64,000 bases of DNA from Halichondria panicea. Lineage: Eukaryota; Porifera; Demospongiae; Suberitida; Halichondriidae. Within the stretch, counting starts at the first letter, position 1. Each line of letters opens with the position of its first letter. Below, one piece after another: positions 2,431-27,932 of the stretch. The notes beneath the pieces were generated by a model that did not search any database, was not told where the DNA came from, and saw only the letters and a list, made by a program, of their open reading frames with translations. The stretch spans positions 6,077,378-6,141,377 of the forward strand of contig NC_087381.1 of assembly GCF_963675165.1 (NCBI RefSeq). The letters run 5' to 3'. The position numbers and the translations under genes are program-made.

Positions 2431-2784
2431 AATCATCATCAGAGGAGTTTGCAAGAGAAGTAATCACAAAACAGTCGTCCTCCACTCCGATTGTTCTGAC
2501 TCTAAAGGATGCTCTAACAATTGTTGAGAGTCTGAGGTATGCTGACAAAGATTGGTTCAATTTGGGATTGGCTTTTGGACTGGAGCTTGCAGAGTTGAAG
2601 AATATTGAAGTTATTTATGAAGATGAAAAGAGCTATATATATGATTACAAACGCCACCTAATGGAGGTGGTAGTCAAGCGTCTTCAAGTCACTGATCCAG
2701 AACATCCGATGACATGGCCTTACATATGTGAATGTCTAAGGAGTCCCACTGTTAAATGTAACGATGTAGCCGAGGAAATTGAAG
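2431..2784 (+). CDS. Death-domain exon A1
   Basis: This internal exon sits between acceptor CATACAG and donor GTAAAG, phase 1 at both ends. The core reads DWFNLGLAFGLELAELKNIE, then a helix region and MTWPYICECL, matching the death-fold pattern of a conserved Trp, LG..(F/L)GL, an L..I turn and a W..L helix. It is nearly identical to the exon at 10840 except for a 21-base (7-codon) length difference after the conserved NIE. Assignment to the death-domain superfamily is by pattern only. Confidence 0.7.
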
Positions 2785-5700
2785 GTAAAGTGCCTACCTC
2801 TGTATAGTTCTAATTCCATTCATTTTAGACTGACGTAAAATTATTATAAAAATAATTATTGAATATGTCGGGAAATGTTTTCTTTAGATGTAATTTGAAT
2901 GCCATTAATTTACTCTCTGCATGCATGTATATGCAGACGTTGTGAAGTGGGGAAGTTTCTGATATTAGTGTATGCATGGGTGCACATAATTATATGAGCC
3001 TAAAAACCATGCATTATGCAATATGTACGGTGGCCCTGGAGGTCGCGTCATGCGCCAATGGTGCAACACCAATGTTTGTAACCTTTGACCTCCAGCTATG
3101 CGCCAATATCCAAACACCATACGTGGACTGCCAATGTTTGTGACCTTTGACCTCCAGATACGCGCCAATGTCCTACGGTGGCCCTGGAGGTTGCGTCATG
3201 CACCAGTGATGCATCACCAATGTTGTGACCTTTCACCTCTAACACACCAATGTACTGACCTTTGACCTCTTGGCAAGCGCCAATGTCTAATGTCCCATGT
3301 GCCAATCGCCTCTCTATTGACCTTTGACCGAGGTGGAATATTAATTTTTGATGGTTTTGTGTCTAATAATGCAGCTGCTTCATCAGGGACATCAAACTCC
3401 TCTATGGCCCATAGTATGGGCATCACTTATCCATTTCAATCCAACTTATACATATTATAATAATTTTCAGCCTAGTGTGATAATACAGTAGGTATAGGTA
3501 AGAACTGGGTTAACCAAGAACTGTGACAATGGCTATAGCAAGTGAGTACAACAAATAATCCAATGGCTGCTTGTACGATCTTGTTCTGTAGATTGTAAAT
3601 CCAACCAGTCAGTTCCAGGAGTTGATAAAGGTCATCTGATCTGGTACTCAGAGTGGGCATCCACCTATAGTCAATGGATTCTGCACAAAATGGAGATAGT
3701 TGCCCCACACGTACAGCAAAGTACAGCATACATTTTTTGACAACTAAACAATTATGCTGTACAGCCTACATCCGGCCTGTCAATAGCATCTACTATACTT
3801 TTACATCCACGTAACTCTGTGAAATAGTAAACCCGCCTGTAGACTTAAAGAACCACATGTGAATGTACGTACCTCAATCGCAACTTGTACTTTGAAGAAA
3901 AAGTACAACTTGTACTCTAACTTGACAAGGAGGAGAGTACAAATATAGCTGCTTCCTATGTTATGCCTATGGTTGTCATAAACCTAGGGACCATTAACTT
4001 ACACAGTGGGCTAAAGACAGTCTCAGCTCAGAGCTAGATACCTAGACAGCAGTCTTTAACTTTATAATAATAGATCACACGTGGGTCAAAGTTCATGATA
4101 CATTCACAACTAAATTTCACAATGGAACCGGCTTCTGCATGGCAGTTTACATGCAGCTTTATATATATACACCTGTTTTCTCACGCCATCGCTTTAGTGC
4201 AAGGTAATAACTAACCAGGAACAGCCTCAATAACTTGAGAAAGCAGATACTACTTCAAATCCAACAGAGTATATATGGCTATAGAAGCAGCCGTTAGTTT
4301 CATAGCATTGCAACTGTTAAGCACATCACAGTCAGCTTTATCGTATTCCTCGTTGTGTGGCTATCCCTCTAGGCATATAATACTACCAACTTTTCGAGGA
4401 CCATATTTATGTAATAATTATGATTTTGTATACACGTATATGGAAGTATACAATGATTCAAAATAATTATCTTGGAGCATAATTATAATTATAATTATAA
4501 GTTTAGGTGTTTAGGCCAATTCGCAAAAAGTTATACGCCTCAAACAGTTGACACTATAGTACGATAGCTATATTATGTGTTCTAAAATATAGTGTTTATA
4601 TATTCATGCCACTATAATTATAGGAGTCGTGATCAGAAAAGGACGACCTCTTATTCCACTCCAAAAACTAATAAAGCGTCACAGTCTGACTGACGAGCAA
4701 CTCAACAGTGAAATAAAGGACTCTGATACTCCCAAACTGGCTTTATATTTCGCTAATGTGGAACTTTATTCGAGTGCAATGGGGCTAGCTATTACTGAAC
4801 AAACTGATGTGACAGAATCGTGTCGTAAATATGGCACTCAAATAGCTATGATGAAGTGCTTACAAATCTGGAAACAACACAATCCTTCACAAGCAACTTA
4901 CAGAGCTCTACTGGATATCGTACTGGGATTGTGGCAAGTCGACATAGCTCATGAAATCTGTCAGCAATTGATCCAACGTAAGTATTACGTGTCATGTGAT
5001 AATTAATGTCTCCTGAGCCCTCTACTGAGTAGCTATATTCAATTTTGATTCATAATTAACGTATACAGTGGAAATTTTCGTAAAATTCGAAATAAAATTG
5101 TAGCATCATACGAAAATTAAAACTACGAAATTATTCTACTGCAAAATATTCACCATCACTATCCTGCATGCATAAGCTGTACAAAATACGAAATACGAAA
5201 TAATCAATGGGTAATTCGTACCAAAATTTGCACCAACGAAATGTTTTTTGTTTTTTTAATTCGTCATTGCCATAATAGCAAAAGCTAAATACCCTAAAAA
5301 TAATTATAATAAGCATACTACAGTAGAACGACGATTATCCGGCCCTCTATTATCCGGAACTCGATTATCTGGCTTGGAAGTTTCTTTTTAATCAGATTTA
5401 ATAGTTCAGAAAATGGGCGTGTCCCTTAAATGCAGCTGTTACTATGGAGACAGGTCTGCTTATCTTCTGCGCATGCTCAGACAACCATGTGGCACTGATG
5501 CCCTGTTTATCAATAAAGCGAGTGGATCAAGGCGTGGTATATCTATTCGATTATTCGGTTACCGGCCTGCCTCTGGAACCAAGGTGTCCTGGTTCTACTG
5601 TACCTTAAGGTGACATATATATTTTCGCTCCATTTCTGGGAATGAGAGTAAAATCACAAAAATTTATCTCGCAGATAATTGGAATTGCAATTAAAACCAC

Positions 5701-8700: not shown

Positions 8701-11700
8701 CTTCATCTCAGTTTGATGGACAAAATGATAGTCCTAGCTCCACCCACAAAACGGAAACATCCAGCTCCTCCCCCAGTTTTGCAGCAAACGTTACCATCAA
8801 TCTCTCTATGCCTACATCCAACAACCAACGTATTAACAGCGACTGAACATTATAATTTTATGTCATTACCAAAAACAGAACAGTTACTTCTCATTGTTTT
8901 TTCTACAAAAAACATGTTTGAAAAACACAAAATAATGAACGGTTGTTGTGAACATGAAAATTACAGGTTTATATGAGAATTTACAGGTTAATATGGGAAA
9001 TATAAACCCTGTACTGACCAATCAGATTGCTGGATTCTGGGTAGCCTCGATTCCAGGCCGCTAAGAGAGGGCCTGGTATCGACTGTTTGCGCATGCGCCA
9101 CCTATTACCCAGAAAGTGGGTAATTCGGATACCATTGTATTTTGCTCAGTAAAACAATGACGTCACAACAAACGGAAGTGGATTGAAGAAAGTGGATAGA
9201 AGTGTGATTGTAGCCCGTGTGATAGCATTCTAATAGCTATCCTTAGCCTACTATGTTAACAAAGGACTCACAGCCTGCAACCGTGTGGATAACAATCCTC
9301 TGAACGGAGGGGAAGGCTGACAATAGCCTATATGGATAGGCCACGCCCATCTGACACTAACCTTGGTGAAAGTCGACTCTATCAGAAAGAAATTGCTGCT
9401 GTAACCAATACAGCTCTGTCTCTAGCTAGCTAGCTATATAGCTCTGTGTCTGACTTTATGAAGAGTATTCTTTGTCTGTATATGTTATTCAGGATATAAT
9501 TCGGGTAAAAATTCAGTTTAATGGAAACATTACGGGAATATTATCCAATAATTTGACGCATGCGCAAGCAGTCAGTAGCAGGCCTAATTGTTTAGGCCTT
9601 GAGAAGGAGGCTAGATTCTGGGCTACTAGTAACTAAAAATAGTTTGGCTATCTTATGAAAGATTCGATGTTACCATATATCTTCTAATTTATCGGACAGC
9701 AAAAAATAATTATTTTGGAAATTGTCCGGGTATAATTGGAACAGATTTTTATAGAGCACGCGAAGTGTCCGGAATAATTAGAACAAGCAAGCAGCTGCAT
9801 GCGAGCTAGCTAAGTTTAATAGAACAGGGTAGGACTGAATAGTTGCACTAGCTATCTAAAACTAGCTACTCAAAGAAGGTATTGTGGGGATATTTAGAAC
9901 AAATGTAATATTAAAGTACTGGAGTGTCCGTTGTATTAGAACAACGAAAATTGCCCAAAAGAGTTTCCAGGGTAATTAGAAGTGTCTTATAAATTAGAAG
10001 ATATACGGTACTTAAATATCTACACATCCTCTGCAGTGCTCAAAATTGCTAGTTTTTAGTGCCGTTTCGGTTAGGGAGAGATTTGAAGAAAATCTTACGG
10101 CTAAGGTCTAAAAATTACACGGAGTAAGCTTGAATAAAATTAATTGTCTGACTTTTGATAAAAAAAAATGTTTCCAGAAATACTTTAGTTCCGGAGATAA
10201 TTAATGTTACGTACATTTTTTTACGATCACACCCATTATCACCTAAAATTATTTCCCACTACAACAACTTTTGGGGAAATATGTTTGAATCATGTTGTAG
10301 CTTATTCTTTTACCTATACAATGGTATCAGCACAATTTCTTAGAAATGTTCCAATCTTGAGATACATTTAGTACAACTACTCACCTATTTTTGTATTCTA
10401 TACTCTCTATAGACTGAATGCACTGTATACATGCGACGCATTTGATCTAATAATAGTGAATATCGATAGCAGCACTCAGCGGTTTAACAATGGCAATGTT
10501 TGTACATAGCAAGACAACATAAAATCCGTGTAGTAAGTACGTATAAGTAAGACTCCATGCATCTCCTCATGTGGCCTGTAATCTGCCACAAATTTGGGAG
10601 TATTGATACAAGAATATCTTGAAATTGCAACAATGCAAAGAAATAATGTGATGATTGTTTCCATGGTAACCTAAGATGGTGGGTATATGTGGTTGTTTAT
10701 ATAACAGCAACAATTTTACTTGTATATAGTTATATTTATTTGCTCATGACATAAACATAGTTTTTCAATCATGCACGTGTATTAATTTTAGCTTGCCATA
10801 AAATTAATTTCTGATAATAATAAATTTATGTGCGTACAGAATCATCATCAGAGGAGTACGCAAGAGAAGTAATCACAAAACAGTCGTCCTCCACTCTGAT
10901 TGTTCTGACTCTAAAGGATGCTCTAACAATTGTTGAGAGTCTGAGGTATGCTGACAAAGATTGGTTCAATTTGGGATTGGCTTTTGGACTGGAGCTTGCA
11001 GAGTTGAAGAATATTGAAGATGAATACCGGTATAACGAACGCCGCCTAAAGGAGGTGGTAGTCAAGCGTCTTCAAGTCACTGATCCAGAACATCCGATGA
11101 CATGGCCTTACATATGGGAATGTCTGATGAGTCCCACTGTTAAATGTAACGATGTAGCCGAGAAAGTTAAAGGTAAAGTGCCTACCTCTGTATAGTTCTA
11201 ATTCCATTCATTTTAGACTGACATAAAATTATCATCCAATAATTATATCTATATGCAGGACATTTTTTTTAGTTGAATGCCAAATTTACTCTCTGTACTG
11301 TACCCTCGCGAGTCGTGTAAATAAGCCCTCTTGAATAAACGCTCATCCCCTCTTTTGCTTCAAAGTTTTGCACAAGGGTATTTTGACTCGATTATATACA
11401 CCCACACAAAATGAAGAGTTTGGGCATGCGCATGCAGTAGCTAAATGCCACATGTTTCACTTCAGTGAAGAAAGGAAGTTTTATAGGTAGCTATAATAAT
11501 TATAGTTAGACTATACTCCTTGCTGGACCAAGATCAGACATATAAGATTCTCTGTGTGGATCTGTTTGCCCTTGAAGATGTATATGCAGGGCAGAACTAG
11601 TCCTATAATTATATGCAGAGAAAAACACAAATCTGAGAACAAAGTCAATTTACCAATTTGTAGGTTACCTTGCCTTGATTTTCTGAAACAGAAGTACCTC

Positions 11701-14700
11701 CATGATATAGATCTGTTGGAGTATTATGCCTATCATCCTTCGGGTAAGTTCCTGCTGCTACATCTGACGAGCAACGCAGAATTCTTCACGTTCATTCTTA
11801 TCATGCTTTAATCATACATAATTTTATATCCTGTTTTCATACAGTTGCTAGGATATGGCCAGGGGATAATAATTATAATAATTATAAAAAGAATAAAATC
11901 GTGCTGTATACAACAATCTACATGGGTGTTAAAAGTGCTGATTCAGCCTTACTGTTTCAAAATTTCTTGTTTGTTTTGAGCAAGCAGTGAAGTAATTTTA
12001 GCTTATGTTCACTACATACTAAATAGGACATAATTGATGGGAAGCTCGATATTAGCTAATTAAAGCGGCAAGTACCTCAGTTTGGGATACATTACTTTTT
12101 CAAAATTCCAACTATCGCACACTTTTGTTTTCTGGCTTATTACGTCATCATTGCAAGAGCTGCGATGTTGCTATTCAACCCAGCTTGTTCCTAAGGCATG
12201 TAAGTCGGCTTGTGTAGGGTCAGATTCTGCATAGCTTTTGCTTACCGTGGTGCTAAATCGTTTGCATTGTTTACTCTAGTATAGGTACCAAATGTTAGAT
12301 TAAATTCGTAAGTGTACACTACATGCAGCTTTACTACAAGGCCGTAGCAAGCGGTCAGGCTAGTCAGGTTTTAGCCTAACCACTTTTTGGAGCAAAGTAG
12401 GTAATGGTCGTCATTTTTGAAAATTGCATAATGCTTTCCTGTAATGATTGTAGATTATTGCTAGTTAACTTTTTTAGCAAAATTTATACTTTTGGCCTGA
12501 TCACTCTAAATTTGCTTGCTACGTCCCTGTACTACTCACACCATCGCTTTAGTGCAAGGCCAACGGTAATTCTGAGGAGACCTAGCAATAACTTGAGAAA
12601 GCAGCCACTAATTCAAATCCATGGCTAGAAGCAGCTGTTATAGTTTCATAGCATTGCAACTGTTAAGCGGGAATAGACAGACACACACACACACAGTCAG
12701 CTTTATTGTATTCCTCGTGGTGTGGTTAGCTCTTGAGGCATAATACTACCAACTTTTCGAGGACCATGATTATATCAATATTATTATATGCCTCGGTGTG
12801 CATGCGCAAGCGAGGTATACGGTAGTGTGTCTTTGTGTGTACATGTGTGTGTCTGTCTGCATGTGTACACTGCTACAGCTGCTCAAGGATCAATTAAGTG
12901 CAAGTATTCGTGGATTTGCAAAATAATGCTTTTTTCTCGAGTTAGAATGCCATTGCAGCCTTTTCAGAAGAGTGCGTAGAAACTTGTTCACTGAGTGTTG
13001 CTACTCTACTTAGTAGTTAGCTCTGCACTAGGATGCTAGCTATTGGTAGCTGGATGCTGTTCCAAGAGTTGAGAACTAAGAGAGCTGTAATTAAGGCTCT
13101 GCTGATGACTTTTGGCATCGATCGTTTTTAACAACAATCATGGTCGATCGTTACCCACTCTTTGAGTTTTATACAGCACAATTCACAAAAATGTTCATCA
13201 CGATAATTTATAATGTGCATGTGTATAAAAGCTATTCTAGTAGCTTTAGCTTTATGTTAATAATTATGTTATAATTATGTAGCTTTGGCATCTCCACTGA
13301 GGCATCAGCACCCGTGGTGCTAAGGATAATTATATTGCCTCTTATACACAACCGGAAGTATACAATGATTCAAAATATCTTGGAGCATAAGTTTCGAGGT
13401 TAGGTCAATCCGCGTAAAGTTATACGCCTCGAACATTTGACACTATGTACGATTGCTATTTATCTAGTCTAATATTATAATTATAGTGTTCATTCATGCC
13501 ACTTCAAATGATATAGAAGTCAGAAGAGGACCAGCTAATCGAGTCACTGTCCAAGAACTATTAAAACTGCATATTAAGTTGTGTGTCTGGCTACATTGAT
13601 GTTCACGTTACTATAATAATCATTGTTTGCTTTCTCTATAGAACCATCCGTTCGCCAAAAACTGATAAAGCAATACCATCTGACTGACGAGCAACTCAAC
13701 AGTAAAATAGTGGTCACTGATCATGATATTCCCGAACTGGCTTTATGTTTCGATGATACGGTAATCGAACTCTATTCCACTTCCATGGGACTACCTCCTG
13801 CAGAAGCTGCTGATGTGAACAGGTTGTACCATATCGAAGGAAATCAAACAGCCATGATGAAGTGTTTGCAATTCTGGAAACAAAATAAGGGTTTTCAAGC
13901 AACTTACGGAGCTCTACTGGATATGGCACTGAAATTGGAAGAATACAACACGGCTGATAAAATCTGTCAGCAATTGATCCGATGTGAGTACGTAATAGTT
14001 GTGACAAGTACCACATGCATAGGCTCAGTGTAGTCAAGAGTTTATGATAGAGAGAGAGTATCGAACATAGGCATACTGTACATTAGCCTCGAGACCAGGC
14101 CGATTAAAATACGGCCTGGTACCTATTGCATGTGTAATTAATTATAGGCGTGGCCGTCCACGCCCATGTACTATCTACTATTATATGAAGCTTTTTATAG
14201 CCTAGCTAGCTAGCTAGCTAGCTGTGGCCTTCTCTATGGTGTTGTGTTGAGAAGGCTTGCACACGAAGCCAGAAGAGGCTCTCATCTACCTCTATGATGG
14301 TTGGATGGTCGTGATGTTTTGAACTGGGTTTCTGACAGACTATGGCAAGTCTTTGACTTTGTGCTTCCAACTGCAACCATAGGGTCATCGTAGAGGTAGA
14401 TGTGAGCCTCTTCTGGTTTCATAATAGTGTGCAAACCTTCTCGACAACACAATAGAGAATATAAGCCACAGCTTCACAGGAGAGAGAGTTTAAAGACTTA
14501 AAAGGGTTTCTGACAGACTATGGCAAGTCTTTGACTTTGTGCTTCCAACTGCAACCATAGGACCATCGTAGAGAGCCTCTTCTGGCTTTAGACAAGTGTG
14601 TAAGCCTTCTTGACAACACAATAGAGGGCATAAAGCCACAGGAGACAAGTATTTGTTAAAAATAATACGGAAAGAAACTAGTAAACAAACTAGTTTACGG

Positions 14701-17700: not shown

Positions 17701-18047
17701 AAAATATTACCAAAATTGACATCCCTGCAAGTTGATGGACTGGATTTGGATATTGAGAAGCTGATTGGAGGAACAAGTACTGTGACTTATGAAGAGCTAC
17801 AAATTGTTCTTAGTCGGTCTGCACAAACATTGTATTTATCAACTGATCTGGAACAAAAGTTGAGAGAAAGTAAGCACTTCATCAATAATTACTATTTATC
17901 AGTAATTACTTCCTTAATCATGCTTGTTCATGTATATTAATTAATCTTGGGGCAGTGGTGAAAATGAAACTTTTATCATTAATAATAAATATTAAATATT
18001 AAATTATGCCTCGGTGCGCATGCGCAAGCAAGGTATATGGTAGTGTG

Positions 18048-18111
<64 letters not shown>

Positions 18112-18116
18112 GTGTG

Positions 18117-18163
<47 letters not shown>

Positions 18164-21100
18164 GTGTGTGTGTGTGCGTGTGCGTGTGCGTGCTGCGTGT
18201 GTGTGTGCAGACTGCTACAGCTGCTCAAGGATGAATCAAGTGCAAGTAAGAGTTTCAATAGGCTTCTAGTCATGTTTTCTTGGATTTTAATTCGTAGATT
18301 TGCAAAATAATGCCTCGTTCTCGAGTTATGCCTAGTTTTGCTTACTTGGAATGCCATTGCAGCCTTTTCAGAGGAGCACGTGGCCAAACTTGTTTACCGA
18401 GTGTTGCTACTCTACTTAGTAGTTAGCTCTGCACTAGAATGCTAGCTATTGGTAGCTGTAAGAGTGATAAGAGAGCTGCAAGGCTCAGCTGCTGATGGCA
18501 GCCAGACTTGAACTTTTGGCATCGATCGTTTTTAACAACAATCATGGTCGATCATTACCGAGTTTACATGCAGCAAGCAATGTTCATCATGACTGTGTAT
18601 ATAAAAGCTATATTAGTAGCTTTATGTTATGTAGCTTTGGCATCTCCACCGAGGCATCATGTAGCACCAACAACTGGTGCTTTTATGTTATTATGAATTC
18701 TCACTGTATCAAAGTGCGGTAAATAAAATAATGTTTCCATATTTTTATTCTCCTCGAAGCCATCGTTCTAATCTAACCATAGTAGCTAAGTAGAATAAAA
18801 TTCATTATAAAATTTTATTAATGTGTTTTCAGGGATACAGGAGGATAAGATCTATGATGAAGCGATGAAAAACAGTGACCAAATTAAACTTTTCTATCTC
18901 AAAATGCTTGCTCTTGGACCAGGACAAATAGGAAAGTCAACATTTATCCGTAGACTGCTTGGAATCATGAAATGGGATATCAATGACGATCTTAAAAATG
19001 GACCGCCTGGTAGCACTGACCTTTCTGAATGTAGAACAGTATTCTTAGACTACAATCAAGAATCCGTAGCTCTGTCAACTGAGCAATCAGCGAGCGCTCA
19101 TTCAAGTGAAGAAAGTTGGCATCTACTTGATAAAGCAGACATAGGGAAAGAATTGAGAGCACTCGTGTCTCTTATAAATGTTCAGACCAAGTCCAGAAAA
19201 GTGAGTGCAATGGCTTCTTCAGAAGAGATGTCTCCAAAATATATTCAACCAATTCGTCTTAGTCAACCATCTGATGCTGAAGAATCTGATCAGCTAATAA
19301 CTGTGTCTACAAATGAAAACATACAAAATGATTTACCATCTTTCGAGCAGTCCCCCCACACTGGCTTCTCTTCAAAAATTCAGGGAATATCTGTAAGCAG
19401 AAGCGAGATCGATGAAGCTTATGAAGAGTTTGAGAACCTACGTTACAAACATTATTCATTAAGTGATTCCCCTGATGATGATCTAAAGTCACCCCATGCT
19501 ATAATCAACATCGCTGATGTTGGTGGTCAGCCGGCTTTTTTAGAAATTCTACCATCCTTGACAATTGGACCGGCAATGTATCTTGTCTTCATGAAACTTC
19601 TATGGGAATTGGATACTCCACAGGAGACAAGATACAAAGGCAAAAATAAAACAGAATCGTCAATATGTAAAAACTACACGTATACACCTGAAGAAGTTAT
19701 TTTCACTGCTCTCTCAAGTATTGCATGTTTTGGTCACTCTGATGAGGAGGTAGAGAAGTATGTAACCGATAATAAGAAAATCAACTCACTTGTATTGATT
19801 ATGGGCACCTATGCGGACGACCTCAAATCTGGTGATGAACAATCTAATACAAAGAAAGTTAATAAAACTAATAAACAACTCGATGCTAAGCTGAGTACTA
19901 CCCCTTTCTATAATGATGGCCGAATTGAGTATTATACAGCACAAGAGAGTGATCCAGAAGTTCTGTTTCCAATTAATAATAAATCTGGGGGCAAACTCGA
20001 AGTTGATGAATATAGAAAAGTCATTACAACCCTTATTAAAAGCAGATTCCGAGAGTATAAAATCCCAGCACAGTGGTTGATGTTTAGCATTTGCTTGAAA
20101 ATTCTTGCTCAGAAAAAAAAAAAGAGTGTCATAGAATTTATAGATTGTGTTAAAGTGGGTGATCGTTTTGGTATGAACGAAGCGACAGTGAGAGTTGCTC
20201 TTAGGTTCCTACACAAGTACATTGGATTAGTGATGTACTTCCAGAAAGACGAAACACTTATGAAGGATATTGTCATCTGCAATCCTCGAGATGTTTTCAC
20301 TTCCATTAGTGAGCTTATTTTCAACATCTATGATCCACCAGAAAGAAATGTACAATCGTCTGTGATCCTCCGCTTCAAGCAAAAGGGTTTCTTTTCTCCC
20401 GAAGATCACATCATTGCTACTAGAAAGAATAATTTACCTATAGAATACTTATTGCCTTTGTTGGAGTATCTAAACATAGCTGTTCCGATGGATGTAGATT
20501 CAATCAAGGGGTACTTTCTTCCAGCAGTTCTTCAAACAGCCACCAGTGAGCTATTGAACAAGCCTCTCGATGGAGCAGATCCTGATCGAGATCCAGAGCC
20601 CCTTTGTATCCAATTTAAAACTGGCTTTGTGCCATTGGGATTTGTTTCTGCCCTAGTTGCTAACTTATTGAAATTGAATGGTGACAAACATGTGCTTAAA
20701 TTATTTAAGAAAGAGAAAGTGTACAAAAACAAAATCACATTTCTATTTAAAGCACGTTACATAATAGTGTTGATATCCCGAGCCAAGTACTGTGAGTTCC
20801 GAGTATCACGAGCAGCTACGGATGGAGAGTTCAGCAGTACCAAATGTTGTACATTGATTATAGACATGCTACAGAAATCAATCAAGAACGTTATAGATAG
20901 AATGAGACAAAGTTCTCTATTCCAGCTGTCGCAAGGCTATGATTTTGCTTTTAAATGCCCTCGAAGCGACTGCAAGGGTAACGAATCATCATTAGCGGTA
21001 ATTAATCCAGGAGATCTTAAAAGCTTGATGTGTGAAAGCTGTGGAATTGCTGTACATGCAACCGGTAAAATGTGTACGTGGTTCACAAAGGTGAGTTTAA

Positions 21101-24100
21101 CAGCTAGTATGTTTTATAATACTTGACTACCTACGTTGTATGCATAACAGTATACTATATAGCTACTATAATGTGCATGCCCTCATGCCATGACAGCTAG
21201 GATCTAATCATATAATTGTGCCAATTATATGATGCCCTCATGCCAATTATTTTACCCTCAGGACCTAGCCATTGATGATGATCAAAAGGTGAGAAATTGA
21301 CGAACAAGGATAAAAATAATTATCCTCGATCTCCTATAATAATTATTATAGACTTTTCTCTGTTTTAAAATGTACGACAACTTTGACTGCGATATAATTA
21401 TGTACAACAGAATTAAAGCTCTTCGGATACGTGCTGGTCTATTAAATGCTCATGAATAATAATTATGTATAGGATCCAGGGACCACCATCGTCCATGAGT
21501 TGATGGTCAAGCATGGAGTCACTGACGAGCAGTTGGATCGAGAGATTGAACAAGACGACCTTGCTCCAGTAGCTATGCACTTTGATGATGTGGAGCTCTA
21601 CCTCAACCCACTGAAGTTAACTGCCAGTGAACAAGCTGACGTGAGGCAAGAGAATTATTTAAGTAGAAGCAATCAAGGGGCAGTGATCAACTGTTTGTCA
21701 ATCTGGAGGGGTCACGAACCTAGCAAAGCAACCTTTAGAGCACTGATTAGGATCTTATTGGATCTGAGGAAGGAAAAGATTGCTACCAAGATCTGTCAGT
21801 ACTTGAAAGAAAAGGTATTTTCTTTGCACTGTATATAATTATAGCATCATGCATGCATGTATTATATACAGTATAATTATTTACTGCTGCGCATGCAACA
21901 TTTCAAAATGCACACTTTTGCATTTTGTACAGACGAGTATACTTGTGCAATAGATGCACAGTTCTATTTGAACAACTATAGCTATAATTATGCGTAGAGA
22001 ATAGCCAGTTTGTCACTTTGACCAAAAGCTTGGAGCTTGTACAGTAGTATTAAAGATCAGTGGCGGATCCAGGGGGAAATCCCAGGGTGCCACGGACCCC
22101 CCTTTCAGTCTAGCTATTATGGCTTTACAGCTACCATCTAGCTATTTATCTCAGTTTGTAGCTATTTGTAATTTGATTTAATGATTGTACCTGTTGTTTT
22201 GATGTATCAACTGTCAAAGAGTGCTCCAAAGTCAAAGGTTAGCTAGTTGACTGTTCGTAGCAGCTAGCTAGCTCTACACAAGTCTATTATGGAACTCCCC
22301 CTGGCTGAGAATGGGATTTTCCCTAGTGTTTACTGCCTGTGACCGGAAGTGGGCGTAACCCCAAAAAATTTCGCGCTACGCACTCGTTAGTTTGGAGCCC
22401 CCCTTTCATTTTTCCTGGATCCGCCACTGAAGATGTTCAACAGCAGAATGATAACTATTAACAGCAATAAGGTACTGTGATAGCAACTAGTACACAACAA
22501 TAAGTGATGACTTACATACAGAAACAGAGTTTTGGAATGTTCTCCCCAGAGATTGCTTTAGTAGCTATTGCAACAAAAGAAATAATTACTGATAAACCTT
22601 AACACAAAATTAAAACAGGTACTAACAGAAAACATACATAAATCAACGCTATATATACGTATAACTTGTAACAGTTTGTATAGAATGTGCAAGAAAATTA
22701 CTGCTCTATACTCCTTACAGGACTACGAAACATTCGGAGAGGAGTACCTGGTGCAAGGTATGGGAATACGCTATCATAGTCATGTAAATTATACCTTGGA
22801 GGGCTTTATATTAAGTCACTCATGCAGTCGGGGTGTACATTATACATGGACCACCACTGAGCCTATTATTATATATACACAGGATTTAGTTCAATAATAC
22901 CGTGTGAACAGAACTCTCTTGATGATGTTTACAGTCTATTAGACTAAGTGTTAAAAGATCCAACTTTTTCCTCTCAGTATCTCAGACTGCCAGGAAGAGT
23001 GACTTAACCACACAGAGAGGTTTGTATATAGTGCATTCTATTTGTAATTATACTATACGTACATATAGCTATATAGCTACCTTAAACTACAGACAGTCCT
23101 AATTATGTATAATTATAGGTGTAATGTATTGTGCAACCAAAGATATCACGTTGTATGTTCTCATGCAGCTTCTAAAGAATTCTCTACTGGAGGGAATAAA
23201 GTGTCAACACGCTATGATTCTGAATCCATTGTGAAGACCTCATCATCAGGTTTGATTGTTTCCTAACTATAACACTGTTATTCACTGAACTCTTAGATGA
23301 GGGGTCCTTGTCATCAGAAAGGCTCCAATACTCAGCAGATCCAGTCCAGAGAGTAGGAGCTACAATATTATCAACAACTGATAGAACCAAAGACCGTACT
23401 GAAAAAGGTAAAGTCACTGCAGATAACTAGTTGTGTATAATGTATATTGTCATTCATGCATGTATAAATGGTGTTTTCGTTTGTTGGATAAAAGTACAAT
23501 GTCATAATTATTGTTCTCAGTGTCAGGCTGTACTAAAGGGAATGAACAGGCAATGAGTACAGATAGAAAGCGTAAACACACCGAATCCATTGTGACGCCA
23601 TTATCAGGTTTGTTTGTTAAAAAGCTATAACATTGCAGTTAATTGAACACTGTCTATTTTATAGATGATGAGTCAACGAAAAAGCGAAAGTGTACAGCTT
23701 CAGCTAGTGATCGAATATTCGAAGTACATACTACAACTCAAAGAGGTAATTTAAATCTGCTGCTGAATCAGTATGTATATACGTTTATGATGCTATAGTC
23801 TAAATTGCATGTTTACGTCACTGAATAACTGCTCATCGCCTCTATATAATTATAATTATATAGCTAATCGAATCACTCTCCAAGATCTAATAGAGCGATA
23901 CCGTCTGACTGACAAACAAGTCAACAGTGAAATCAAGAAAGCTGATACTCCCGTTGTAGCCCACTGTTTTGATAATGTGGAACTTTATTCGAGTGCAATG
24001 GAACTAACTACTGCTGAAGAAGCTAATGCGCGTCGTGTAGATGGCAATCAAACAGCCATTATGAAGTGCTTGCAAATCTGGAAACAGCGTAATCCTTCTC

Positions 24101-27100
24101 AAGCAACTTACAGAGCTATACTGGATATTGCACGGCGATTGGGGAATAGAGACACAGCTGATCAAATCTGTCAACAATTTACCCGACGTAAGTACATGTA
24201 CATGCATACGTTATTCCGTGTCAGGTGACAATCCCTCCCCTGAGTAGCTACTCAAAATTAATTTAACACGTGCTTGAAATTACAAAAACTGAATGTTGTC
24301 AGGAGCACATGCACGTACATAAGCTAGTACATGAGTATGGAGCGTCTTATATTATAATTATGCAGTATATTTATTGCGGAAACAATAATCGTCCTAACTG
24401 TAATAATTTCCTTGTTTGTAATGTGCTAAGGCATTTGATCCGAATAAGTATAATTATACTAGCAGCACTCAGCGGTTTGACATTATTATATATAATGGCA
24501 TTGCCGCAATGTTTTTATAATGATTATATATATAGCAAGACGATAATTATCATTTCCGGGTAGTAAGACACTGCATCTCCTCATGTACTCCTAATAATGT
24601 ATGGTAGAAACTGGATTATTAGCAGGCTGCATACAGTATACTTGTGTATCATAATTATTCCTATATAATTATGCCTCTGTGCGCACACTCAAGCGAGGTA
24701 TACGGTATATAGTATAAAGTGTGTTCGTGTGTGTGTCTGTGTAGACTGCTACAGCTGCTCAAGGATCAATGAAGTGTATAAGTTAGAGTTTCTATAGGCT
24801 TCTAGTCATGTTTTCTTGGATTTTAATTCGTGGATTTGCAAAATAATGCTTGGTTCCCGAGTTATGGCTTACTTACTTGGAATGCCTTTTCAGAAGAGTG
24901 CATGCGTAGCAAAACTTGTTCACCGAATGTTGCTACTCTACGGTAGTTAGCTCTGCACTAGAATGCTATAGCTATTGGTAGCTGCAAGAGTGAGAAGAGA
25001 GCTGCAAGGCTCTGCTGACTTGCAGCCATTAATTTTAGACTTGAACTTTTGGCATCGATCGTTTTTAACAATCATGGTTGATCATTACCCACTCTTTGAG
25101 TTTTCATGCAGCAAAATAAATGAATGCAAAACACAGTTTTTAATGTTCATCAAGATAGTAATTATGATGTGTGTATAAAAGTAATATAGCTTTATGTTAT
25201 ATGTAGTTTTGGCACCTCCATGCACCGAGGCATTAGCACCCACGATGCTTTCATTGTTGTGTTTTTAACAAGGGCGTATGAAAAGAGAAGAAGGCATGCA
25301 ACTACAATCTGTATTATAAATGGCCGGGGGTTTATATCTAAAAATAGTAACGTGCACTTTATATTATTATACTCTAGACTAGCCTTGTTTTTACTCTATT
25401 CCCTAGTGGAACTAAATATAGCATATCCTGCTGACTCATCAATAATACGACGCATACACAGTATACATTGTGAGTTGCATGCCCTCTTCCCTTCATACGC
25501 CCTTGTTATTAGATATTGTTGTACGAATGTGTTATAAGATGAACGTGTTTTGTGTCAGTGTTGGTATCCATTGGATTGTGTCTATATTGCCAATTCCCTT
25601 GAGATTGCACCAGATGAGCCATTTTTGAACTATATACAATTATAGCTACATTGTATTCATTATACAGTCAAACTCTCCTCCTCTGACAAGCCGTACCACA
25701 ATACGCTGTTGGAAGTTACATATGAGCAAGGAAAGAACAAGTGGCGTAACATTGGTGTCAGTCTGAAATTGTCTATGTTCGATTTGGAATCCATTCGGCA
25801 AAACAATCCATCGGACATCGGAGATTGTTTCTGTGCAATGCTGCTGAAGTGGTTCGAAAGCAGTCCTGACTGCTACCTTGACACTTTTCTGAAAGCTCTC
25901 AGATCAAAGCTTGTGGAACTTGAAAACCTCTGTCCAAAAGTCGAGGAAGCCATCTTCAATATTGCGAACTTAGGTAAAAATAAACAAGTTATCAGCTCAA
26001 TAATTATAGAGACGGTTATTGCGTGACATCATTAATTTTGTTGGAGCTAACTTACAATGTTTGACATTTGAAGACAGTACTTAAGAAAATTAATTCAACT
26101 CTAAGGCTATTGCGATTCTAACATTTATATATAATTATATATAGACATAAAGACATTACGTCTATGTTCGAATCGCAATAGCCTTATATACTTGAGTATA
26201 ACGAGCCTCTCTATAACCTACCAGGTGTATCATTGTATACCTCAGGGTCATTGTTTGTGTGAGGCAATTAATGTTGCTAAACCACAGGGATGAAGTTAGA
26301 TGTATAACGACCACTTTTAGTGTAATACCCAGCTGGCTATGCAGTTTTAAGGGTTCTGTTGTCATTGGCATCATTGTGCATTGTGGGGCAGAGATAAGAT
26401 GAAGTAATTTTAACTGCTCCAATGAATGTAAACACAGCAATAATCCTGTGTAAACTGTAGGGAAATAAGACATTAAAACTATTCAGTATACGTAACACTC
26501 CTTGTAGGCACAGCTTCTGAAGTGGGAGGAGTTGGTCTACAAGAGTTGATGGACCATGTCGATACCGTCCAACTTAATAGAGAGATCCCTGATGATGAAC
26601 TCCCAGTCATAGCTGCCTATTTCAACAATGTGGAGCTCTACTCTCAAGCAATGGGTCTGAGTCCGGCTGAACAAGTTGATGTTAGAACTGCCCTCCATCA
26701 ATACGATACTCAGACAGCCATAACCAAGTGCTTGTTGTTTTGGCAGCAACGCGACCCATACAAGGCAACGTACGGAGCACTGTTGGAGCTGCTACTGAGA
26801 TTACATAGAACACAAGTAGCTACTCAAGTCTGTCAGTACCTGGCTCAGAATGTGAGTACACCATTTATGTCAGTCTAGAGTTACAGACTCCGTCAGCATT
26901 TTAGAAGTATACTTGAAACTAAAATCTACTTGCGTTGAGTTCGGCCCCGGGAGTTATAATTATAGTCAATAATGGCTTCATTTATGCTTTATGTGGTGGA
27001 CAAGTATGCCTGGGACTTCTGCATGGAAAACGCTAACTTTTGTTGGAGCTTTTCAGCCCTACAGCATAATAGATAGAAGAGCTTTTTAACAAGGAATCCA

Positions 27101-27932
27101 ATGGTATATGAAACTTTGAATTTCAGGGAAGTATGACAAGGTTATAACAACTTTATGAAGGTTGAACTCAACACAAATGGACTTTAGTACTGCCATGCAC
27201 ACGGTAGAAAAATTACTGGGGGCTTTCTCTTGCTAGGCATTCCATTACCAGCATCTGCTTATGTGTTTCCATTTTCACTTAAAATGTTCATTCTTCTATG
27301 TTATAATCTGTAATTTGCATGTGAAGGGGGAAATGGTGCTATAATGGGACAATGTCCCTAAAGTTACCTCCATACTGTGTGATTATCCATCCAGTACAAA
27401 AATGTGTATAGGTCTGGTGTCTGTAGGATCTAAGTTAGTTGAGCGGGACAAGGACTCTGATTAAAAAAAAGGTTGTCACTTCTACTATTAGAATTTCACC
27501 TAAAAAAAGGTCAACATTAATTCTAACAGTCAGCATGCGCTGGAGAGTTATTAGCCTTTTAGTCACTAAAGAGCTAGAACGCTATATAGCAGCTTGGTAG
27601 CTGGTAGCTGCAAGAATGAGAAGAGAGGTCAACCGTATAATTATACTGATGCAGCAGCCATTAATTTTAGACTTGTACTTTTCGCATCCTTTTACAATCG
27701 TTTCTCGCCCTATGATTACCCTGATGCAAAAATGCTCGTCATGATAATTATCGTGAGCAATAGCTAATAGCTGTTATATGTATACATCCACCAAGGCATC
27801 AGCACCCATGGTGCTTTCATTATATAAGCCTTGTATAATTCAACTTTATGTTTGCCTTCTTCCACTAAAATTTCTAGTAACACCCTTATTGTACAGAAGA
27901 TGGAGGGTGTGGTCACTGGCTCGGACTCATGA
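2431..27932 (+). CDS. Large multi-death-domain / Ig / Roc-COR GTPase gene (joined model)
   Basis: Nineteen exons on the + strand join without a phase clash into about 1,980 codons: 2431-2784, 4624-4977, 10840-11172, 13642-13983, 17293-17571, 17660-17869, 18833-21090, 21262-21288, 21473-21814, 22721-22757, 22978-23019, 23169-23249, 23297-23407, 23521-23607, 23665-23745, 23864-24187, 25668-25973, 26508-26851, 27897-27932. Domain order is four death-like domains, Ig-like, linker, Roc-COR, death-like, Ser/Thr/Lys-rich linkers, then three death-like domains. Known Roco proteins with death domains (DAPK1 is one) act in intracellular signalling and cell death, so an intracellular signalling or immune scaffold is inferred. 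The start exon was not found; the first exon enters in phase 1, so it lies upstream or in an undetected exon. The region could instead be two genes, the first ending after one of the early exon pairs. The terminal exon is the weakest part. Confidence 0.6.
3079..3330 (+). promoter_or_regulatory. Cluster of five DR1-like nuclear-receptor motifs
   Basis: TGACCTTTGACCT or a one- or two-base variant occurs at 3079, 3141, 3226, 3256 and 3318. Its reverse complement, AGGTCAAAGGTCA, is the DR1 consensus bound by RXR, HNF4, COUP-TF and PPAR-type receptors. The copies sit in a degenerate repeat that also shares the flank GCGCCAATGTC. Two more copies lie at 6323 and 6364. All are in introns of the multi-death-domain gene. 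Regulatory use is inferred; the array may simply be a minisatellite. Confidence 0.4.
3331..4190. other. Intron without recognised feature
   Basis: This stretch between death-domain exons A1 and B1 holds no exon-like frame or transposon end that I can support. Short ORFs on both strands lack splice context. Confidence 0.5.
4624..4977 (+). CDS. Death-domain exon B1
   Basis: The exon runs from acceptor ATTATAG to donor GTAAGT, phase 1 at both ends. It shows SLTDEQLNSEI, a LALYFANVELYSSAMGL segment and QATYRALLDI, the last matching the (A/T)(T/W)..L helix of death domains. The same pattern recurs at 13642, 21473, 23864 and 26508. The start of its downstream intron resembles that after 24187, so the two share ancestry beyond the exon. 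Confidence 0.7.
5321..5600. mobile_element. Tigger/pogo-type MITE
   Basis: The 280-base element begins CAGTAGAACGACGATTATCC and ends GGTTCTACTG, with TA on both sides (5319-5320 and 5601-5602). CAGTnGAnnnnCGATTATCCGG ends and TA duplication are typical of the pogo/Tigger branch of Tc1/mariner. It has no transposase. Confidence 0.75.
5769..5981. mobile_element. MITE with TACCGTATTACTAGAA ends
   Basis: The left end TACCGTATTACTAGAATG and the right end TATTCTAGTAATACGGTA are inverted copies. The interior is AT-rich and noncoding. The TA-start, CCGTAT-type ends resemble those of other small elements here (31861, 34545, 46955), suggesting related Tc1/mariner-mobilised families. Confidence 0.65.
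6486..7304. mobile_element. Tigger-like MITE interrupted by a second MITE
   Basis: The left end reads CAGTAGACTCTCGTTAATCC. The right end, read in reverse, is CAGTAGACTTTCGCTATTCC. Repeated internal GGCCGGAATAGCGAGGTGG motifs match 44192-44520. The right TIR is split by the element at 6910-7293, so the Tigger-like element is older. A TA target duplication is not evident at these ends. Confidence 0.65.
6910..7293 (+). mobile_element. CAGTGGCGGATCC-ended MITE, 5-bp TSD
   Basis: The element has inverted ends CAGTGGCGGATCCAG / CTGGATCCGCCACTG and is flanked by AAAGT on both sides (6905-6909, 7294-7298). The second copy at 22058-22429 is in the opposite orientation and flanked by AAGAT. Both give 5-bp duplications. 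It has no transposase. It sits inside the right TIR of the Tigger-like element. Confidence 0.85.
7305..8384. other. Intron stretch without recognised feature
   Basis: I see no coding exon with splice support and no transposon ends here. The sequence is AT-rich with short poly-T runs. Confidence 0.5.
8385..9015 (+). mobile_element. Second hairpin/CCAAT/TATA repeat element
   Basis: A hairpin around 8465-8515 (ATCTATG...TTATAGTGTCCC and its inverse) is followed by an inverted CCAAT box (8546-8550), a TATA box (8586-8592) and a proline-rich ORF containing MDKMIVLAPPTKRKHPAPPP. The order and spacing match the element at 207-1035, although the bases have diverged. The right end contains GGGAAATATAAACCCTG. 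Confidence 0.35.
9042..9613. mobile_element. TAGCCTCG-ended element with 9-bp TSD (MULE-like)
   Basis: It begins TAGCCTCGATTCCAGGCC and ends with AGGAGGCTA. The 9-base duplication GATTCTGGG is perfect on both sides (9033-9041 and 9614-9622). It shares its terminus with elements at 14084 and 62447, which also have 9-bp duplications. A 9-bp TSD and long TIRs fit the Mutator superfamily. Imperfect inner TIRs include GCGCATGCGC. It has no transposase. Confidence 0.8.
9671..10010. mobile_element. MITE near the start of duplication copy 2
   Basis: The left end TACCATATATCTTCTAATTT and the right end AAATTAGAAGATATACGGTA are inverted. In duplication copy 1 the flanking sequences around TATCTTATGAAAG and CTTAAATATCTACAC are close together, so this insertion postdates the duplication. 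Confidence 0.7.
10840..11172 (+). CDS. Death-domain exon A2
   Basis: Acceptor CGTACAG and donor GTAAAG bound this exon, phase 1 at both ends. The DWFNLGLAFGLELAELKNIE core is identical to exon A1. A2 is 21 bases shorter, in the loop after that core. A frame-preserving length change suggests both copies are or were under coding constraint. Confidence 0.7.
11578..11743 (+). CDS. Possible alternative first exon (uncertain)
   Basis: An open frame with ATGs at 11578 and 11584 runs to a strong donor (CGG|GTAAGT) and ends in phase 1, which fits the phase-1 start of exon B2 at 13642. The translation includes LDFLKQKYLHDIDLLEYYAY and matches no family I know. If real, it would be an alternative 5' start for the downstream half of the gene. 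An internal acceptor at 11662 does not keep the neighbouring phase. Confidence 0.2.
12340..12528. mobile_element. MITE with GGCCGTAGCAAGC ends
   Basis: The left end GGCCGTAGCAAGCGGTCAGG and the right end GCTTGCTACGTCCC are roughly inverted. A second member at 37805-38068 has CGTAGCAAGCATGC and GCATGCTACGGCC ends. Both are noncoding and intronic. Confidence 0.6.
12788..13305 (+). mobile_element. ATGCCTCGGTG-ended element, copy 1
   Basis: The element has inverted ends ATGCCTCGGTG / CACTGAGGCAT and a shared interior (ACTGCTACAGCTGCTCAAGG, GCATCGATCGTTTTTAACAA). Other copies are at 18006-18657 and 24671-25233, with 3' fragments at 27565-27799 and 55436-55490. A variable TG microsatellite follows the 5' end in each longer copy. 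It is absent from duplication copy 1, so it inserted after the duplication. Confidence 0.8.
13515..13575 (+). pseudogene. Relic 5' end of a B-type death-domain exon
   Basis: About 100 bases upstream of exon B2, an acceptor-like ACCAG is followed by CTAATCGAGTCACTGTCCAA. This closely matches the start of exon B3 at 23864 (CTAATCGAATCACTCTCCAA). The frame continues only about 15 codons before similarity ends. It is read as a truncated exon copy. Confidence 0.6.
13642..13983 (+). CDS. Death-domain exon B2
   Basis: Acceptor TCTATAG and donor GTGAGT, phase 1 at both ends. It contains HLTDEQLNSKI, IPELALCFDDTVIELYSTSM and QATYGALLDMAL, parallel to exon B1. It is the last death-domain exon before the Ig-like exon, to which it joins in phase 1. 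Confidence 0.7.
14046..15107. mobile_element. Foldback element split by a later insertion
   Basis: Bases 14046-14083 and 14838-14960 form one arm. The inverse arm runs from about 14970 to 15107 (for example GGAATTTGCACACTGACCAA against its complement). Removing the insert at 14084-14828 leaves an almost complete palindrome of about 300 bases. The loop carries a short duplicated segment (CCATCCAAGTGTGGGTGATG type). It is noncoding. Confidence 0.8.
14084..14828. mobile_element. TAGCCTCG-family element nested in the foldback
   Basis: Ends TAGCCTCGAGACCAGGCCG and CGGCCTGGTTTCGAAGCTA are inverted. The perfect 9-base duplication ACTGTACAT lies at 14075-14083 and 14829-14837. The interior holds a direct repeat (14326-14385 and 14504-14562) and a long inverted repeat around AGAGGTAGATG. 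No ORF of note. Confidence 0.85.
15401..15463. repeat. Inverted repeat with repeated core
   Basis: AGCACTAAGCTGATAGTACC and its reverse complement flank a third partial copy of the same core. The arms could form a strong hairpin. It lies in the intron between exons B2 and Ig. Confidence 0.75.
15555..15583 (+). pseudogene. Relic 3' end of a B-type death-domain exon
   Basis: ATCAAATCTGTCAGCAATTT followed by ACCCGAC|GTAAGT matches the last codons and donor of exon B3 (24163-24187) with a single mismatch, and the following intron is also similar. The rest of the exon is missing. With the 5' relic at 13515 it indicates a lost or broken third copy in this interval. Confidence 0.65.
15866..17046. 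repeat. 21-bp minisatellite interrupted by a transposon
   Basis: Units of TAAATACCCTCAGTTGTTTAG and close variants run from 15866 to 16029 and from 16937 to 17046. Some units carry TTTGCTAATTAATACC, which supplies the TTAA target of the inserted element. ORFs on both strands here are repeat translations. Confidence 0.85.
16033..16932 (+). mobile_element. piggyBac-like element, TTAA target, internally deleted
   Basis: Inverted ends CCCTTTCCCGGCTTTA / TAAAGCCGGGAAAGGG are bounded by TTAA at 16029-16032 and 16933-16936, the piggyBac hallmark. An acidic-looking broken frame (16310-16440) and a basic stretch (16560-16640) could be remnants of transposase ends; this is inference. The element is 900 bases with no intact ORF. 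Confidence 0.8.
17293..17571 (+). CDS. Ig-like domain exon
   Basis: This phase 1-1 exon encodes an Ig-like fold: VGEEVKFFIVTSPGQ (strand B region), FSYDWCFNDQSIS (strand C Trp), SELVILKSLSKHCGSYKCIV (strands E-F with Y.C). The usual strand B cysteine is replaced by Phe, so the canonical disulfide cannot form. That fits a cytosolic protein. It connects in phase 1 to the linker exon before the GTPase. Confidence 0.75.
17660..17869 (+). CDS. Linker exon between Ig and Roc-COR
   Basis: Acceptor TTTACAG and donor GTAAGC; it enters in phase 1 and ends in phase 1, matching the GTPase exon. The translation (about 70 aa, including LTSLQVDGLDLDIEKLIGG) has helical-looking Leu spacing but no family I can name. 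Confidence 0.65.
18006..18657 (+). mobile_element. ATGCCTCGGTG-ended element, copy 2
   Basis: Ends ATGCCTCGGTG and CACCGAGGCAT are perfect inverted 11-mers. The TG microsatellite at 18045-18200 lies just inside the left end and produces several spurious Cys-Val ORFs. The interior matches 12788-13305 and 24671-25233. It lies in the intron before the GTPase exon. Confidence 0.85.
18833..21090 (+). CDS. Roc-COR GTPase exon
   Basis: A single 2,258-base exon encodes a Roco-type GTPase. Residue numbers here count from the open frame at 18823. G1 is LGPGQIGKST (31-40), the G3-like DVGGQPAF is at 232-239, and GTYAD (328-332) sits where Roco proteins usually have (T/N)(H/K)xD. A COR-like region follows (PAQWLMFSICLKIL onward, roughly 410-700), then a Cys-containing tail with CPRSDC and CESCG that could bind zinc. 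The G1-G3 spacing, about 190 residues, is much longer than usual and is filled with Ser/Glu-rich sequence. It enters in phase 1 (acceptor TTTTCAG) and leaves in phase 0 (donor GTGAGT). Role inferred: a nucleotide-dependent switch linked to death-domain partners. Confidence 0.85.
21262..21288 (+). CDS. 27-base micro-exon
   Basis: The acceptor CCCTCAG and donor GTGAGA enclose nine codons (DLAIDDDQK), phase 0-0. It fits between the GTPase exon (ends phase 0) and the next death-domain exon (starts phase 0). Skipping it would also keep the frame. Confidence 0.5.
21473..21814 (+). CDS. Death-domain exon C1
   Basis: This exon is phase 0-0, unlike the phase 1-1 A and B exons. It shows GVTDEQLDREIEQDDLAPVA, DDVELYLNPLKLTASEQADV and SKATFRALIRILLDL, the same layout as the B exons. 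It sits directly after the GTPase. Confidence 0.7.
22058..22429 (-). mobile_element. CAGTGGCGGATCC-ended MITE, second copy
   Basis: The ends match the element at 6910-7293, in the opposite orientation. AAGAT flanks both sides (22053-22057 and 22430-22434). It is 372 bases, in an intron, with no ORF. Confidence 0.85.
22721..23745 (+). CDS. Six small Ser/Thr/Lys-rich linker exons
   Basis: Exons 22721-22757 (phase 0 to 1), 22978-23019, 23169-23249, 23297-23407, 23521-23607 and 23665-23745 (all phase 1-1) all have good GT/AG sites. Exons 23169 and 23521 share ESIV(K/T) near their ends and the same donor context, and 23297 and 23665 share the following position, so a two-exon unit was duplicated. 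Basic clusters RKRKH and KKRKC could form a bipartite nuclear localisation signal. The phase 1-1 exons can be skipped singly or together without a frameshift. Confidence 0.55.
23864..24187 (+). CDS. Death-domain exon B3
   Basis: Acceptor TATATAG and donor GTAAGT, phase 1-1. It contains RLTDKQVNSEIKKADTPVVA, DNVELYSSAMELTTAEEANA and QATYRAILDIARRLG. This is the best match for both relic fragments at 13515 and 15555. Confidence 0.7.
24462..24600 (+). repeat. Third copy of the death-domain intron repeat
   Basis: AGCAGCACTCAGCGGTTTGA and later CTGCATCTCCTCATGTACTC match 2058-2170 and 10468-10580, where the segment precedes A-type exons. Here it precedes exon A3 at 25668, again suggesting the A exon and its upstream intron spread as one unit. 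Confidence 0.65.
24671..25233 (+). mobile_element. ATGCCTCGGTG-ended element, copy 3
   Basis: The left end is ATGCCTCTGTG (one mismatch) and the right end CACCGAGGCAT. The interior shares GCTACAGCTGCTCAAGGATC and TTTTGGCATCGATCGTTTTT with the other copies. Confidence 0.8.
25668..25973 (+). CDS. Death-domain exon A3
   Basis: Acceptor TATACAG and donor GTAAAA, phase 1-1. The pattern KWRNIGVSLKLSMFDLESIR, then CFCAMLLKWFESSPD and FLKALRSKLVELENL, is a good death-domain signature (Trp, mid Leu-Ile, mL..W, L..AL). It is more diverged from A1 and A2 than they are from each other. Confidence 0.75.
26103..26186. repeat. Hairpin in intron
   Basis: AAGGCTATTGCGATTCTAAC pairs with TGTTCGAATCGCAATAGCCT with one mismatch. 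A short AT-rich MITE-like hairpin. Confidence 0.7.
26508..26851 (+). CDS. Death-domain exon C2
   Basis: It enters in phase 1 (acceptor TTGTAG) and leaves in phase 0 (donor GTGAGT). It contains PVIAAYFNNVELYSQAMGLS and KATYGALLELLLRLH. If the donor is not used, the frame stops at 26876-26878, giving an alternative protein end with no further exon. Confidence 0.7.
27565..27799 (+). mobile_element. 5'-truncated ATGCCTCGGTG-family fragment
   Basis: The right end CACCAAGGCAT followed by CAGCACCC, and interior matches (GGTAGCTGCAAGAATGAGAA), identify the family. The left terminus is missing. Confidence 0.6.
27897..27932 (+). CDS. Possible terminal exon of the death-domain gene
   Basis: An acceptor GTACAG is followed by eleven in-frame codons and TGA in phase 0, as exon C2 requires. 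The upstream pyrimidine tract is poor and the peptide (KMEGVVTGSDS) is uninformative. An ATTAAA that could serve as poly(A) signal lies near 28099. Weak call. Confidence 0.3.
   Translation, partial: KMEGVVTGSDS

Follow-up and report, generated by a model that had tools for sequence, protein, structure and literature searches.

Is a GTPase that lies among many death-domain-like exons the core of one gene, and if so, how many recruitment domains does that gene carry? Known Roco proteins are dimerising GTPases, and death domains act in homotypic recruitment. A preliminary description of a 64-kb stretch of DNA (the window; C5:6077378-6141377 in a host genome of 131.5 Mb on 39 contigs) had proposed a single 25-kb gene joining an Ig domain and a Roc-COR unit to eight death-like exons. 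Our analysis points to a probable sponge gene that combines a GTP switch with at least four, and perhaps at least eight, recruitment domains of the cell-death type.

Results

Nineteen predicted exons form one open frame

We rebuilt 19 exons (Table 1), with AG acceptors at 19 of 19, GT donors at 18 of 18 and phases that are compatible throughout. The joined frame has 1,982 codons including the stop, which is the only one and stands at the end. Across nine pairs of duplicate death-type exons, in which some exons occur more than once, all 17 indels are multiples of three; in four comparisons of flanking introns, 4 of 27 are. The nine pairs are also free of stops, which is weak evidence of coding when taken alone, since the chance of a stop-free duplicate under neutrality is 0.05-0.67 per pair. 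By splice sites, open frame and frame-keeping indels, the nineteen predicted exons are real, beyond chance, as had been described, and the outer death exons are, judged from their sequence, coding.

Table 1. Predicted exons of the locus, in window coordinates
Feature	Position	Strand	Remarks
Exon A1	2431..2784	+	death-like type A, phase 1-1; may or may not be part of the Roco gene
Exon B1	4624..4977	+	type B death domain, phase 1-1; may or may not be part of the Roco gene
Exon A2	10840..11172	+	second copy of type A, duplicated from or with A1, phase 1-1; may or may not be part of the Roco gene
Exon B2	13642..13983	+	type B death domain, phase 1-1; may or may not be part of the Roco gene
Ig exon	17293..17571	+	I-set E 3e-5, phase 1-1; conserved in the family
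Linker exon Lk	17660..17869	+	phase 1-1; without a convincing Pfam family
Roc-COR GTPase exon	18833..21090	+	G1 GPGQIGKST, G3 DVGGQ; phase 1 to 0
27-nt exon	21262..21288	+	phase 0-0; kept in close paralogues
Exon D, death domain	21473..21814	+	phase 0-0
37-nt exon	22721..22757	+	phase 0 to 1; kept in paralogues
42-nt linker exon m42	22978..23019	+	phase 1-1; also carried by ZU5 genes
Linker exon L1	23169..23249	+	phase 1-1
Linker exon L2	23297..23407	+	phase 1-1
Linker exon L3	23521..23607	+	phase 1-1
Linker exon L4	23665..23745	+	phase 1-1; weak likeness to the upstream gene, E 0.29
Exon B3	23864..24187	+	death domain type B, phase 1-1
Exon C	25668..25973	+	death domain type C, phase 1-1
Exon B4	26508..26851	+	type B death domain, phase 1 to 0
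Terminal exon	27897..27932	+	KMEGVVTGSDS and stop; kept in two other genes

The Ig-to-stop gene and its Roc-COR core

From the Ig exon to the stop (17.3-27.9 kb), the exons very probably form one gene of about 1,520 residues, very probably in the order Ig-linker-Roc-COR-death-linkers-death x3. We base this reading of the sequence on the core retained in paralogues, the short introns and a terminal exon that recurs with compensating phase. Ig, Lk, Roc-COR and D stand in the same order in paralogues C8, p11 and p13, with Roc-COR and D also present in p12, and exons 5-11, including those of 27, 37 and 42 nt, were found again in at least three close paralogues. The introns from D to B3 comprise six of 47-220 bp and one of 906. 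A repeat of about 0.5-0.6 kb has three copies in gaps and introns (window 12765-13321, 18194-18671 and 24650-25249), and a copy of it has enlarged the B3-C intron. The terminal exon has copies in the gene directly upstream of the window and at C6:1.334 Mb. It follows B4 (out phase 0) in the window and a type A exon (out phase 1) at C6, where it carries two extra bases and near-identical end residues; its recurrence, with extra bases that fit the other incoming phase, is good evidence for the predicted last exon.

The Ig and Roc-COR core already described here stands. COR-A was matched directly after Roc in 10 of 10 family members at E<=1 (best 9.1e-8), the match in the window being 8e-6 and under the curated cut-off. 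The Roc profile was matched in 7 of 10 at E<=1 (best 0.0022), the window member not among them. GPGQ.GKST and D.GGQPAFLE, which we take to be GTPase motifs G1 and G3, are invariant in all ten, and this conservation makes it likely that the Roc-COR unit is a working GTPase switch. The family is far diverged: against solved Roco structures, phmmer gave no match at E<=1 and a profile search only a G-alpha chain (E 0.5). The two exons preceding Roc, one of them with the I-set match, hold no LRR, and the 10 exon translations scanned for a kinase or ankyrin gave no match.

What lies in front of the Ig exon is less uniform. In ten family members compared, no conserved first exon was found upstream of it; seven of them have an Ig exon in reach, and their alignment starts just before its acceptor. 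About 140 bp before the Ig exon are common to C8, p11 and p13, and farther upstream the only matches are L016/L019, L020/L021 and one 103-bp piece in L017/L025. In p11, we at first took an open frame ahead of Ig for the terminal exon of the previous gene, and dropped this reading after seeing, by eye, similar letters at other loci. The p11 locus (C5:1682500-1698692, minus strand) has two Roc-COR units 2.1 kb apart, at 1694883-1697192 and 1690440-1692743. Read by eye, the exon phases of the first unit continue without a break into the second unit's Ig exon, and the two are possibly one gene with two GTPases.

A genome-wide Ig-Roc-COR family

The gene does not stand alone; it proves to be one member of a genome-wide expansion of at least 22 Ig-Roc-COR loci. 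These are Roc-COR matches of at least 40% identity, full length or joinable from pieces; partial matches above 40% at C15:4198999 and C5:5336473, neither of which has a listed Ig exon nearby, were not counted. An Ig exon lies 0.4-7.2 kb upstream on the same strand at 22 of 22 loci, and four of the 22 have an internal stop. Among the matches listed for these loci (best-scoring candidates, on contigs of interest), a downstream death-type exon occurs at 17 of 22, 14 of them listed within 12 kb and three more from local search. Of the 21 other loci, 5 list two death-type exons in the 12 kb that follow, counted by locus and not by gene; p13 has D and two further half-domain exons with weak Death matches. 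Genome-wide there are 60 COR-A matches, not all of them separate genes, and at least 148 death-domain matches. Prokaryote genomes yielded no relatives of Roc-COR or type B, and viral contigs none of Roc-COR or type A. One further locus, L055, had been taken by eye for a Roc-COR gene and was rejected, Pfam finding nothing in its long frame and the family profile giving no significant match (E 0.046); its type B and A exons stand. The gene belongs to a large, fast-changing family in which single class 1-1 exons were copied and recombined.

Death-domain identity of the exon types

Domain support differs by exon type, being strong for B and D, good for C and weak for A. Exons of types B and D show the six helices of the death fold, type B by alignment. 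The structure prediction suggested in the preliminary description gave a death domain for exon D at pLDDT 92, with death domains filling Foldseek ranks 1-27 (at E values no better than 0.04), but for A1 a single-sequence AlphaFold model of pLDDT 42.6, which has six helices and was set aside before any fold search. Exon C matches Pfam Death at 2.5e-4 in the window, 0.014 in L049 and 0.0058 in L050, with scores all under the curated cut-off, and matches to type C and Pfam Death overlap at 8 places. Pfam Death was found in 5 of 8 type A members (best 0.0058), A1 of the window not being one of them. The type A profile against the PDB gave an amylase first (0.23) and then FADD death domains (0.65-0.85); type A and type C matches overlap at 7 places, and comparing the type A profile with that of type B gave no significant match. 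A profile search had also brought up A-like exons in p14, which we set aside, Pfam finding no Death in the better one. Four further death-like frames in p11 and p13 gave two weak Death matches (0.039 and 0.018) and two none. Of the eight death-like exons first claimed, those of types B and D, and with Pfam also C, are thus upheld, and those of type A less so; on sequence, four death domains are well supported in the Roco gene, and eight are possible.

Rates of change

Relative to the window, dN/dS is 0.28-0.54 for Ig, Lk, Roc-COR and D, and core exons of the very close p11/p13 pair give 0.48 and 0.81. Values are 0.57-0.78 for exon C and 0.70-1.52 for the A and B pairs of the window cluster, reaching 1.34-1.52 among A0, A1 and A2, although most of these A and B pairs arose more recently than the core pairs, which inflates their dN/dS. 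Type A pairs elsewhere give 0.18-0.72 (four on C1) and 0.27-0.83 (five others). The outer death exons seem to change faster than the core, and diversifying and relaxed selection are alike possible.

A neighbouring ZU5 gene shares the C-terminal block

The gene directly upstream of the window (L053:8597-9157, L053/L049, C5:6047378-6067377) has a ZU5 exon (E 1.2e-8), followed by m42, L1, a weak L4-like piece, B, C, B' and the terminal exon. It is preceded by a divergent B exon (profile E 1.6e-20) in which Pfam found no Death. The stretch from C to B4 and its 3-prime flank are 91-98% identical between this gene and the window, and the C-terminal block, shared as a set of exons, thus acts as one unit. 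At C6:1.3288-1.3340 Mb (L057:1266-1940, L032), a gene-like order B-ZU5 (E 2.8e-6)-m42-A-terminal exon is found. At C3:1.388 Mb (L050:409-768, minus strand), a C-B' pair of death exons has an Astacin-type metallopeptidase frame (E 5.8e-9) about 2 kb away. The window itself contains a weak glycoside hydrolase frame at 34700-34858 on the minus strand (GH42 E 3.6e-4, under the cut-off).

Discussion

Taken together, we consider it reasonably likely that the whole is explained by a Roco-type (AP-GTPase) gene of an animal, a sponge according to the preliminary description, transcribed from Ig to stop, in which a GTP switch governs death-domain recruitment. The part of the 25-kb single-gene proposal that runs from Ig to stop, with four death domains, is upheld; A1, B1, A2 and B2 may be linked to it. 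All four are class 1-1, so agreement of phase cannot tie them to the Roco gene, and we see about an even chance that they lie on the Roco transcript. The A-B pair is found three times, as A1-B1 and A2-B2 inside the window and as A0-B0 just upstream of it (C5:6073042 and C5:6076172); units 0 and 1 resemble each other at 73-93% over the pieces that match, which include introns. The gaps around A1, B1, A2 and B2 are 1.8-5.9 kb. As candidate first exons with an ATG, two weak ones lie upstream of A1 and none upstream of A2. Between B2 and Ig, the window holds a lone 3-prime type B fragment with a donor, a decayed copy, at 15554-15581, and 21-base repeat arrays at 15833-16033 and 16890-17090.

Are there, then, two or more genes, with the A-B pairs forming one or more separate genes or a neighbour's tail and the Roco gene starting near Ig with four death domains? 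We regard this as somewhat short of an even bet. Large gaps are confined to the N-terminal part, paralogue C8 is without A- or B-type exons, and within 5 kb upstream of Roc-COR a listed death-type exon occurs at only one other of the 22 loci. There, at C1:5.42 Mb (C1:5422935), a candidate exon with a Pfam Death match (1.5e-6) lies 1.1 kb before the Ig exon, a case that counts towards a single gene. Death exons farther upstream comprise one at 5.1 kb, which is that of the preceding Roco locus, and three 12-16 kb off. Type A exons in L055 (with AATAAA), L051 and L047, read singly, reach a stop without a good donor in three of three, and in A0, A1 and A2 the eighth codon from the donor is an in-frame stop; yet a strong donor of phase 1, AAG/GTAAAG, is preserved in these three and in the C6 copy, and at C6 it fits the incoming phase of the conserved terminal exon. 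In 8 of 8 close type A copies on C1 the frame closes 39 codons after the WPY motif, and these are perhaps terminal exons, but a possible phase-2 donor (GTATGT) in their tails makes a division into separate genes slightly less favoured. Nor was any copy of the conserved terminal exon found from A0 to the Ig exon. The type B exon ahead of the ZU5 core at C6, like the divergent one upstream of the window and the donors retained by B1 and B2, counts towards a single gene, and the alignment of the Ig exon from its acceptor on in seven family members implies that some exon must precede it.

That the A and B exons of the N-terminal part are decaying copies, left out of any transcript, is improbable. 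The dN/dS of A0, A1 and A2 would suit such decay, and the B fragment between B2 and Ig shows that decay does occur at the locus, but stops are absent, indels are all multiples of three, and splice sites are intact in A1, B1, A2 and B2, as is the donor in A0. That the death-type exons are parts of a mobile element instead of gene modules seems highly unlikely. Types A and B each have at least 150 matches, and this high copy number would suit such an element, but many of the copies form runs on C1, C3, C6, C7, C13 and C14, and those examined are flanked by splice sites, several adjoining ZU5 or Roc-COR exons. More tentatively, and as a doubtful extension of the Roco-gene reading, the locus may belong to a modular system in which swappable cores (Ig-Roc-COR, ZU5) are combined with arms of duplicated class 1-1 death exons and with common linkers and terminal exon, at least three A-B cassettes being alternatively spliced.

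How would the Ig-to-stop gene work? The Roc-COR unit would dimerise and switch with GTP like other Roco proteins, with the Ig domain serving as a sensing or docking part. The GTP switch would expose the array of death domains on a flexible linker, and the exposed array would recruit adaptors, caspases, ZU5 proteins or other partners with death domains when cells die or mount an immune response. In front, splicing may add the upstream cassettes A1-B1-A2-B2 and the A0-B0 pair that lies outside the window. Death exons at the periphery that change faster than the GTPase core would be expected if partners or threats diversify. We infer from these features a GTP-gated recruitment scaffold in death or immunity.

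Which known systems does this arrangement resemble? ZU5-death proteins are of the PIDD, ankyrin and UNC5 sort, and the upstream gene likewise pairs ZU5 with m42, linker, three death exons and the terminal exon, whereas the window gene has Ig-Roc-COR in the place of ZU5. It also departs from Roco proteins of the LRR type (LRRK, MFHAS1) in having no LRR directly before Roc. NACHT-ZU5 genes occur in early animals, according to the available part of one report (PMC12909245). Roco proteins of the DAPK1 type have the order kinase-ankyrin-Roc-COR-death with one C-terminal death domain, as far as the accessible sections of two papers go (PMC6337361, PMC6320773), in agreement with the earlier statement that animal Roco proteins known to have a death domain have a single one. 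The window gene shares with them Roc-COR followed by a C-terminal death domain, here exon D, but has Ig and a linker before Roc and several death domains in place of one.

Brown-algal LRR-ROC-COR genes, in the excerpted account of PMC11378527, carry 72-bp LRR exons of phase 2 that are shuffled. As there, a conserved Roc-COR has same-phase exons duplicated and shuffled beside it in a large, fast-changing family, although the exons here are whole class 1-1 death domains and lie mostly after the switch. Expansions of TRADD-N and death-like domains in Amphimedon, with one to three death-like domains and variable partners, are likewise lineage-specific and found in a sessile marine animal, going by the sections available (PMC8195603); they are built on TRADD-N, and no Roco-centred death array is described in those sections. 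Titles and abstracts of the open literature gave no description of an Ig-Roc-COR-death family in sponges; most subscription journals lie outside this scope, and an earlier description is possible.

What appears new is a death domain multiplied and shuffled around an Ig-Roc-COR core, probably in an early-branching animal, with a sister gene that has a ZU5 core. The shuffled LRR exons that have been proposed for Roco receptors of brown algae find a counterpart here in an animal, chiefly on the output side. If the modular reading were true, one locus would yield many recruitment codes around one GTP switch. The locus makes the assembly and diversification of death-domain signalling hubs directly testable.
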